Below are positions 3,295-5,198 of a DNA stretch of 9,126 nt, in pieces. The first letter of the stretch is position 1. Every line of letters starts with the position of its first letter. The position numbers were made by a program, and so were the translations under genes. The stretch lies in contig CALDEO010000149.1 of the NCBI GenBank assembly GCA_937942465.1, positions 1-9,126 on the forward strand, read 5' to 3'. The stretch comes from an uncultured Saprospiraceae bacterium (GTDB taxonomy: Bacteria; Bacteroidota; Bacteroidia; Chitinophagales; Saprospiraceae). Below the pieces are notes generated by a model that was not told the origin of the DNA, ran no database searches, and saw only the letters and a list, made by a program, of their open reading frames with translations.

Positions 3295-3879
3295 ATGAAA
3301 ATACTTATCAACTTAGTTCTTTTAGCATTTATCGTTTTCCTTGCTTACTTGCTTTACGCGAATATTCAAGAGCCTATTAAATTCAGAAATGAAAAGCAAT
3401 TTCGATTGTCAAAAGTTACTGATAAGCTAGAACAGATTCGTTCTGCTCAAGAAATCTACAGAGATATCGTAGGTAACTTTGCCAATGATTTTGATACATT
3501 GGCTCAAGTACTTAAAACTGACAGTATCGAGTTTGTTAAAATCTCTGAAGATCCAACAGATCCAACGAATGCAGAAAAATTTATCAAAGTATATACTTAT
3601 ACTCCTGCAATAGATTCGATCAGGCAGATGGGTATTAACCTTGATTCACTTAAGTTTGTTCCTTTTGGTGGTGGTACAGAGTTCAATATCCAAGCGGATA
3701 CATTGACTTACCAAAAGACACTTGTTTCTGTAGTAGAAGTAGGTACAAGATGGCAAGATTTTATGGGAGATTATGCTTCTCCGAGATTTTCAAAGTATGA
3801 TAATACCTATAGACCTGCAAAGGCGGTTAAGTTCGGAGATATGAACAAACCTAGTCTTGGTGGATCATGGGGTAGATAA
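3295..3879 (+). CDS. Small membrane-anchored protein of unknown function, pseudopilin-like layout
   Basis: This 194-aa protein belongs to no family I can name. One hydrophobic segment (residues about 4-23, with a Lys at position 2) should anchor it in the inner membrane with the rest outside the cytoplasm. It is followed by an amphipathic helix (about 27-58: RLSKVTDKLEQIRSAQEIYR) and GNFANDFDTLAQVL (60-73). It then has a beta-rich tail with YTPAIDSI, FVPFGGGTEF and a Gly/Ser-rich end. The IRSAQ...Y...G.F...FDTL pattern recalls type II secretion/type IV pilin-like proteins, but no prepilin peptidase site (Gly before FxxxE) is present, so the resemblance is tentative. I recall similar proteins encoded before DUF3822 and rsmD in other Bacteroidota. 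It is first in the plus-strand run, and DUF3822 starts 15 bases after its stop. Confidence 0.75.
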   Translation: MKILINLVLLAFIVFLAYLLYANIQEPIKFRNEKQFRLSKVTDKLEQIRSAQEIYRDIVGNFANDFDTLAQVLKTDSIEFVKISEDPTDPTNAEKFIKVYTYTPAIDSIRQMGINLDSLKFVPFGGGTEFNIQADTLTYQKTLVSVVEVGTRWQDFMGDYASPRFSKYDNTYRPAKAVKFGDMNKPSLGGSWGR

Positions 3880-3894
3880 TCTACAAAATTCAAT

Positions 3895-4662
3895 ATGAAT
3901 TCAGATTTTACATCTAGATATAAAAATTTAACGCTGTCCGCAACTTATGATGCGGACAGTTTTTTTTATTGCCTATGGGGTGATAACAAGACATTGCTGC
4001 AATGCGGTGGCCATAGTGAGTTCCTATTGGCTACTAGCAAATACGCAGGCGCTAGAGTGGCCATATCATCTAATGGACTACCTTACTCTCATGTACCAAA
4101 CTCAGAATATCAGAAAGATCACAATGAGTTGTACCTAAGTAATGTATCTAGATTGCAATCTAATGTAGACTGGACATTCAGCTCCAATGAAATTGGAAGC
4201 TATGGTATCGTAACAGTTTATGGGTTCCAACAAAAACTACTTCAGAAATATCAGATTGAAAATCAATCAGATAAAATAATACACAGATCATCAGCGCTAG
4301 TATGGGCTTGCTTGCAATACCCAGTCAAACAGCCTGCAGTATTTCTCAACGTAGCAGATAATCACTGTAGCATCACAGTTGCTGACAACGAATCATTGCT
4401 TTTCTACAATCAATTTGCATTTACTGCTGCGGAGGATATCCTTTATTACTGTTGTCTTATTTTTGATCAACTCAAATTGGATAGATCTAAGCATCATCTA
4501 ATGTTGTCAGGTAATATTGCTCAGAGATCAACTCTCTACGATTTGTTATTTAAGTACATTCACAATGTTGAGTTTGTAGATTTAGACTTTAATCTTGAAG
4601 GAGGAGTTGACAAGCCTAAGCATTACTTTATGGATCACTACTCACTGATGACATGCGTATAA
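3895..4662 (+). CDS. DUF3822 family protein, possibly ASKHA/PilM-like fold
   Basis: This 255-aa protein has the DUF3822 hallmarks found in Bacteroidota. There is an N-terminal strand pair (LTLSATYDADSFFYCLW, 12-28) and a central FLNVADNHCSITVADNE strand-turn-strand (150-166). The YNQFAF segment (171-176) is followed by a helix with DILYYCC. The C-terminal part has the LSG turn (204-206), a YDLLFKYI helix and HYFMDHYSLMTCV at the end. Its function is unknown. The second half looks like the phosphate-binding core of actin-like ATPases of the PilM/GspL sort, which is my inference. It has no signal peptide or membrane segment, so it is probably cytoplasmic. The start at 3895 is supported by the N-terminal strand pair, since no later in-frame Met occurs until residue 246. 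Codons 14-24 contain a strong intrinsic terminator. Its last 10 bases overlap the start of rsmD in another frame. Confidence 0.85.
   Translation: MNSDFTSRYKNLTLSATYDADSFFYCLWGDNKTLLQCGGHSEFLLATSKYAGARVAISSNGLPYSHVPNSEYQKDHNELYLSNVSRLQSNVDWTFSSNEIGSYGIVTVYGFQQKLLQKYQIENQSDKIIHRSSALVWACLQYPVKQPAVFLNVADNHCSITVADNESLLFYNQFAFTAAEDILYYCCLIFDQLKLDRSKHHLMLSGNIAQRSTLYDLLFKYIHNVEFVDLDFNLEGGVDKPKHYFMDHYSLMTCV
3933..3967 (+). terminator. Intrinsic terminator inside the DUF3822 coding sequence
   Basis: CTGTCCGCA (3934-3942) pairs perfectly with TGCGGACAG (3951-3959). This gives 9 bp with six G-C pairs, extended by a G3933-T3960 wobble, with an 8-nt loop at 3943-3950. Eight consecutive T follow (3960-3967). 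It begins 54 bases after the stop of the preceding gene and 39 bases after the DUF3822 ATG, and it encodes residues Leu14 to Phe24. It could end transcripts of the 3295 gene, or act as an attenuator relieved by ribosomes translating DUF3822. The structure is seen directly; its activity is inferred. Confidence 0.72.
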
Positions 4663-5198
4663 TATCAGGTGACTTAGGAGGTCGTAGATTTAATCCACCA
4701 ATAACCAAGTGGCCCACAAGACCTACAACAGATATAGCTAAAGAGGGACTTTTTAATATTCTCCAAAATAGGATAGACTTCGAAGAGACTAAAGTATTGG
4801 ACTTATTCGGAGGTACAGGCAATTTGAGTTTCGAGTTTGCAAGTCGAGGAAGCACCGACATTACATATATAGACAAGTACAACCCAGCTATCGGTTATAT
4901 CAAAAAGATGGTTGTTGAGTTTAAAATTGAATCATCCATCAAGATTATCAGATCTGATGTATTCAAATACTTAAAATCTTCTGTTGATCACAAGTATGAT
5001 CTCATATTTGCTGATCCACCATACGGCTTGGATAAGCTATCTACAATACCAGAATTAATATTTGAAAAGGGTTTACTAAACCCCGATGGGATATTGATCA
5101 TTGAACATGATGCAAGCAATGATTTTAAAGATGTCTCAGGTTTTACTGAAAAACGTAAATACGGAGAAACGATCTTCTCGTTTTTTGAAGCGAGTTAA
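4653..5198 (+). CDS. rsmD: 16S rRNA (guanine966-N2)-methyltransferase RsmD
   Basis: RsmD is an S-adenosylmethionine-dependent methylase that makes m2G966 in the 30S head, acting on assembled 30S or a late precursor. The 181-aa length is typical. The N terminus has the family form MRIISGDLGGRRF, followed by the substrate-binding motif RPTTDIAKEGLFNIL (23-37). The SAM-binding motif I is LDLFGGTGNLSFEFASRG (49-66), the acidic end of strand 2 is YIDKYN (72-77), and the catalytic motif IV is DPPY (121-124). The C-terminal GILIIEHD strand is also present. The ATG lies inside the end of DUF3822, a 10-base overlap that suggests translational coupling. Placement directly after DUF3822 is typical of Bacteroidota. 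No broken motif was seen. Confidence 0.95.
   Translation: MRIISGDLGGRRFNPPITKWPTRPTTDIAKEGLFNILQNRIDFEETKVLDLFGGTGNLSFEFASRGSTDITYIDKYNPAIGYIKKMVVEFKIESSIKIIRSDVFKYLKSSVDHKYDLIFADPPYGLDKLSTIPELIFEKGLLNPDGILIIEHDASNDFKDVSGFTEKRKYGETIFSFFEAS

Follow-up and report, generated by a model that had tools for sequence, protein, structure and literature searches.

Taken as a whole, the comparisons suggest that codons 13-25 of the DUF3822 gene do more than encode protein: they probably also encode a leaky internal terminator for the predicted pilin-like gene upstream, which would lower the output of DUF3822 and rsmD relative to that gene. Judged from the sequences of relatives, the hairpin formed by these codons is not a product of chance and appears to be held in the reading frame by selection. 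By the same comparison, it goes with the upstream gene and not with the translation genes downstream.

Results

A stable hairpin inside the DUF3822 frame

The window is the whole 9,126-nucleotide stretch of DNA that was analyzed, and the features under study are listed in Table 1. A sequence-only reading had described a hairpin at 3933-3967 with a 9-bp perfect stem, one wobble, an 8-nt loop, and eight T. This was confirmed from the sequence: C3934-A3942 pairs perfectly with T3951-G3959, and the single wobble is G3933-T3960. The frame, which that reading held to be intact, remains open from the ATG at 3895 through the hairpin. The position first given, codons 14-24, was correct to within one codon; the whole element occupies codons 13-25 and the perfect stem codons 14-22.

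Table 1. Features of the locus and of the hairpin within the window
Feature	Position	Strand	Basis or annotation
Upstream gene, 194 aa	3295..3879	+	predicted type IV pilin/pseudopilin-like
DUF3822 gene, 255 aa	3895..4662	+	Pfam PF12864, E 2.7e-29; actin-like fold
5' arm of stem	3933..3942	+	folding and covariation in relatives; G3933 is the wobble partner
Loop, 8 nt	3943..3950	+	sequence and folding
3' arm of stem	3951..3960	+	sequence and folding; covariation in relatives
Run of eight T, predicted release site	3960..3967	+	read from sequence; T enriched after stem in relatives
rsmD-type methyltransferase gene, read-through target	4653..5198	+	Pfam PF03602

The predicted folding energy of the hairpin is -17.9 kcal/mol (z -5.9). 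Equal stability was reached by none of 200 dinucleotide shuffles and by none of 100 synonymous recodings drawn from local codon usage. The stem is written in codons that are scarce over the seven genes of the window, namely CTG (9% of Leu), TCC (6% of Ser), GCG (12% of Ala), and GAC (22% of Asp); the last three had already been singled out as unusual. The accompanying suggestion, that this codon choice hints at selection on the RNA, agrees with the recoding result and with in-phase covariation in relatives. The window hairpin has two features expected of an intrinsic (Rho-independent) terminator: a stable, G+C-containing stem-loop, and a T-run (T8) directly after the stem. Eight terminator-like sites occur in the window, as against 4.3 (sd 2.3) in shuffles, and the hairpin is the sole one on the + strand.

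None of the Rfam 15 covariance models matches the window at the hairpin at E <= 1, and no gathering-level match was obtained in 20 loci; a known RNA family was thus rejected as its identity. The core dyad, TGTCCGCA and TGCGGACA separated by 2-14 nt, occurs once in 1.85 Mb of the 65%-complete genome. It is therefore not a dispersed repeat within that 1.85 Mb, and a dispersed repeat or uptake-sequence dyad was ruled out.

Predicted proteins of the locus

The family of the upstream protein has no match in Pfam or NCBIfam. Structure prediction suggests a pilin-like protein with a type IV pilin/pseudopilin fold. The DUF3822 protein matches 3hrg in a profile comparison (E 9.5e-42), and its fold is related to BT_3980. 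In its model (pLDDT 92), the next nearest folds are those of PilM, EpsL/GspL, and FtsA, and the protein looks like a relative of PilM/GspL. Together, the two proteins possibly form an undescribed pilus- or secretion-like module. The product of the third gene we take to be RsmD.

In the window, the upstream gene and DUF3822 are co-directional and separated by 15 nt. Among 81 loci of relatives with both hairpin and upstream gene, the in-frame start candidate closest to DUF3822 is a TTG overlapping the upstream stop in 56 (e.g. L008, L011, L024) and an ATG overlapping it, in the pattern ATGA, in 12. Because these candidates overlap the upstream stop, translation of DUF3822 may depend on re-initiation from the upstream gene.

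Conservation within and outside the family

In Saprospiraceae, taken to be the family of the window, DUF3822 was found in 361 of 398 genomes. The sample examined comprised 127 family genomes (many genera, some repeated) plus eight from elsewhere in the order. For 91 of the 127, the homologous place holds the most stable 40-nt window, and none of 100 synonymous recodings equals it; the count rises to 105 when at most 4 of 100 are allowed. Among the eight genomes from other families, none reaches 0/100 and none has a hairpin at the homologous place. In two of these (L022, L029), a window lying 16-18 codons upstream is matched by at most 4 of 100 recodings. On a wider scan, the best windows of L016 and L029 lie elsewhere, with no recoding of 100 matching them. 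A hairpin at roughly this position also turned up in L259, the single case among 28 further genomes of the class. In this genome (G483), which lies outside the family, the hairpin is shorter (TCAGTTGC/GCAACTGA) and is equaled by none of 100 recodings; the upstream gene was not found beside its DUF3822.

When a degenerate hairpin pattern was scanned through GTDB species genomes, it returned 90 stretches, 80 inside DUF3822 and 10 elsewhere. Sorting 80 of the 90 by organism placed 71, in DUF3822, in Saprospiraceae or other Bacteroidota (one labeled just 'bacterium'); the remaining nine are scattered in taxonomy, three of them in Streptomyces. One bearer of the hairpin (L053) is the cultivable species Phaeodactylibacter xiamenensis. 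The base rate was counted with one rule over 80 loci and 522 kb of strand-wise ORF sequence. Sites with the stem sequence of the hairpin numbered 69 (56 wholly inside called ORFs and 13 not, strands pooled), and other sites numbered 39 outside ORFs and four inside. A single-protein search of the named genomes confirmed nothing.

Pairing between synonymous positions

A set of 82 loci with a four-base loop was aligned in a common register and frame, giving 80 distinct rows. Pairs are formed in 98.8% of the pairing cells, both sides change at 12 of the 14 pairs, and double changes fill 113 cells; none of 500 shuffles reaches any of these figures. Shifting the partner by 1-3 columns lowers pairing to 32-49%. 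The compensatory synonymous changes that the sequence-only reading had proposed to look for in the stem are thus found among relatives.

As the 82 loci had been selected for having the hairpin, which favors pairing, the count was redone with the protein profile alone fixing the register. This covered the 115 genomes with an adjacent upstream gene, with columns available in 108. The four pairs joining third codon positions are formed in 96, 101, 101, and 95 of the 108 loci, each above all of 2000 shuffles (shuffled maxima 65, 93, 93, and 68). The three third-third pairs that immediately flank the helix do not leave the shuffled range, with the first of them close to its top (45 vs a maximum of 47). 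Pairing of third positions is likewise within the shuffled range in family genomes without the upstream gene (10 with columns) and in the other families (7 with columns).

Both arms are read in one codon phase, which sets synonymous positions opposite one another in the stem. Third positions covary between the codon before the stem's Leu and the final codon of the 3' arm, reading A-T in 45, C-G in 22, G-C in 6, and T-A in 5 of the 82 loci. Ser and Arg AGN codons alternate across the same loci. Arms of new sequence that are still paired, at about the same place, occur in L013, L019, L028, L231, L235, and L237, and also in the diverged frames of L245, L247, and L248.

Association with the upstream gene

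Where the upstream gene adjoins DUF3822, the hairpin is found at or near its place in 106 of 115 family genomes (102 by rule, including L172 with its long spacer, and four by eye) and is missing in nine. The stem is thus conserved in relatives, as had been asked of it. Twelve genomes lack the upstream gene beside DUF3822: one (L184) has a clear hairpin, eight have none, two (L202, L228) are doubtful, and one (L199) is truncated. The gene is missing from the whole genome in 11 of the 12, the twelfth (G128) being truncated and outside that search. L184 (G149) keeps the DUF3822 hairpin, with the upstream gene not found in its genome.

Eight further genomes have the upstream gene and a DUF3822 match that is weak or absent. 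Three of these (L245, L247, L248) carry re-invented hairpins in a DUF3822-like frame, and four (L242, L243, L244, L246) have no hairpin. In L241 (G193, 81% complete), where DUF3822 is missing, the upstream gene is followed by a free classical terminator ~20 nt past its stop and then by rsmD. Outside the family, upstream gene and DUF3822 are adjacent in 13 genomes, none of which has the hairpin.

A Fisher test of hairpin against upstream gene, which ignores shared ancestry, gives p 1.9e-7 with the doubtful and truncated genomes left out and p 2.6e-6 with the doubtful genomes counted as hairpins. A phylogeny-aware test on the DUF3822 tree, which is poorly resolved and does not even separate the other families, yields only 3-4 independent pairs, and the sign test is not significant.

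The upstream gene ends at most 300 nt before the stem in all 73 hairpin loci with enough flank, and in 70 of 81 loci 50-56 nt separate its stop from the stem. L172 and five other loci have spacers of 87-216 nt with the hairpin still inside DUF3822, a position that is unexplained if the element is only a terminator. On the downstream side, rsmD follows DUF3822 in 54 of the 63 hairpin loci with room; within 4 kb of the hairpin, argS lies in 17 and glnS in 12 of the 39 loci with enough flank.

The T-run after the stem

Over the nine nucleotides that follow the AGN codon in the 82 loci, T accounts for 517 of 738 positions; synonymous recoding predicts 442 (sd 7.8) and gave no more than 465 in 1000 recodings. 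Phe codons after the stem are TTT in 85 cases vs TTC in 10, compared with 3889 vs 2148 in the loci at large. At least five T within 8 nt are present in 85 of 103 rule-based hairpins and fewer in 18, and in 15 of the 103 no T directly follows the arm. In G+C-richer copies, L024 among them, the stem persists with the T-run nearly gone. The retention of the T-run that had been looked for is therefore partial: T is enriched beyond the synonymous expectation, yet the run is short in many relatives, which suggests a tail that is selected but often weak. A formula-based terminator score is high in the window and negative for many relatives, and was not counted as evidence. Programmed slippage on the T-run was considered and ruled out, as the initial run length ranges from 0 to 8 in relatives.

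Discussion

In the reading favored here, RNA polymerase that has passed 3295-3879 would mostly halt at 3960-3967, leaving a short mRNA for the pilin-like protein, and the read-through fraction would supply DUF3822 and rsmD. One promoter could in this way provide a structural subunit in excess over the PilM/GspL-like protein. That polymerase stops at the T-run, how often it would do so, the roles of the proteins, and any effect on read-through of ribosomes moving onto DUF3822 are what we infer from the comparisons above. The sequence-only reading had offered as its simpler account that the hairpin ends the transcript of the 3295 gene and happens to sit in the next gene. The first part of this account fits the better; the second does not, in that the position appears to be held by selection.

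Internal terminators between genes are already known to set stoichiometry, as is a terminator within a coding region, that of bmrB. In cellulolytic Clostridia, internal intrinsic terminators are described as setting the stoichiometry of ABC importers, with long stems and poorer U-tracts than canonical ones (PMC9045158, available in part). The present hairpin, in which T is enriched and the tail is often weak in relatives, resembles them: as far as the available part of that article describes them, both have a long stem and a poorer U-tract and follow a gene whose product would be in excess. The Clostridia elements are, in the same partial account, intergenic, whereas the DUF3822 hairpin lies inside the next frame and is kept there family-wide by codon choice; only in L241 is such an element free-standing. 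What appears to be new, as found neither in Rfam nor in the literature search, is a terminator-like element that recurs family-wide inside the gene of a folded protein and pairs its third codon positions in phase. That search found no paper on DUF3822 and, mostly without full texts, no account of a hairpin inside it.

If the terminator reading is true, one run of letters both encodes a protein and controls the output of the next proteins. The locus offers a clear natural example of letters that serve RNA and protein constraints at once, a warning that annotation can miss terminators inside coding regions, and a joining of two uncharacterized proteins into a testable pilus-like module. A further-reaching version, which we consider rather unlikely, is a family-wide dual code: a PilM/GspL-like protein would have its first beta-hairpin encoded by the very stretch that forms a terminator with its third positions paired. 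Here the element would act as a translation-coupled valve: only ribosomes crossing from the pilin-like gene onto DUF3822 would open DUF3822-rsmD, and Saprospiraceae would in this way hold constant the proportion of subunits in an undescribed pilus- or secretion-like machine.

Among the alternatives, the hairpin could be mainly a 3'-end stabilizer or processing signal, with RNases trimming the operon mRNA back to it to leave a long-lived pilin-like mRNA and little true termination. The stem is better conserved than the T-run, as this would predict, and there are known stem-loops through which processing sets the stoichiometry of an operon: those of the cip-cel operon are described, in the accessible portion of PMC10311766, as steering mRNA processing and acting through RNA processing and stability. 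They determine subunit ratios, as the DUF3822 hairpin would, and in that partial account they are intergenic, between the genes of the operon. RNA ends inside ORFs have also been reported in Escherichia coli, where, on the partial evidence of PMC7815308, 3' ends and sRNAs internal to ORFs were mapped experimentally and most ORF-internal sRNA ends were ascribed to processing; these are experimental ends in another gene. Set against a stabilizer or processing signal are the selection for T after the stem and the classical terminator of L241 (one genome), and we regard it as unlikely.

A translation-dependent attenuator, in which ribosomes on DUF3822 would cover the 5' arm and permit read-through so that ribosome-polymerase coupling is sensed, is distinctly unlikely. 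Its attraction is that the element lies in translated codons and that the overlapping TTG and ATG start candidates suggest re-initiation. The bmrB terminator of Bacillus subtilis is a precedent: the part of PMC4191407 available describes ribosome-mediated attenuation of bmrCD in response to antibiotic, of the leader-peptide type with an antiterminator. The bmrB terminator and the predicted one in DUF3822 both lie within a coding region, and in that same partial description bmrB differs in being leader-like, whereas DUF3822 is a folded protein of ~255 aa and no antiterminator was found for it. In the 150 nt upstream across the 82 loci, the longest complement to the 5' arm averages 4.79 nt, vs 4.99 in shuffles. 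The original proposal, that ribosomal capacity is sensed ahead of a run of translation genes, is unsupported, because the region downstream often lacks argS and glnS and the search for an antiterminator found none; it is the upstream gene with which the hairpin is linked.

That protein constraint produced the hairpin incidentally, through a conserved LS...DSF peptide whose coding sequence is self-complementary by accident, is highly improbable: the commonest arms do encode a recurrent peptide, but the synonymous null, the third-third covariation, the arms of unrelated sequence and peptide, and the shuffled-range pairing in other families and in family genomes without the upstream gene all speak against it. 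A dyad acting at the DNA level, for example as a repressor operator or an uptake signal, would account for the near-perfect inverted repeat and is hardly credible given the single copy in the sequence searched, the unrelated pairing arms at the same place in several relatives, and the enrichment of T on the coding strand.

Minor observations

The hairpin pattern also appears within the gene of one Streptomyces protein that has a PVGLSTLIGADSVDFGA stretch (L065, L079, L107 (Streptomyces), and L116), for which protein conservation or another coding hairpin are options. On the minus strand of the window, a 15-pair terminator-like site with a T-tail lies at 16-48, after a minus-strand ORF at 70-1230; its Rfam matches are weak, below gathering scores, and the site looks ordinary.
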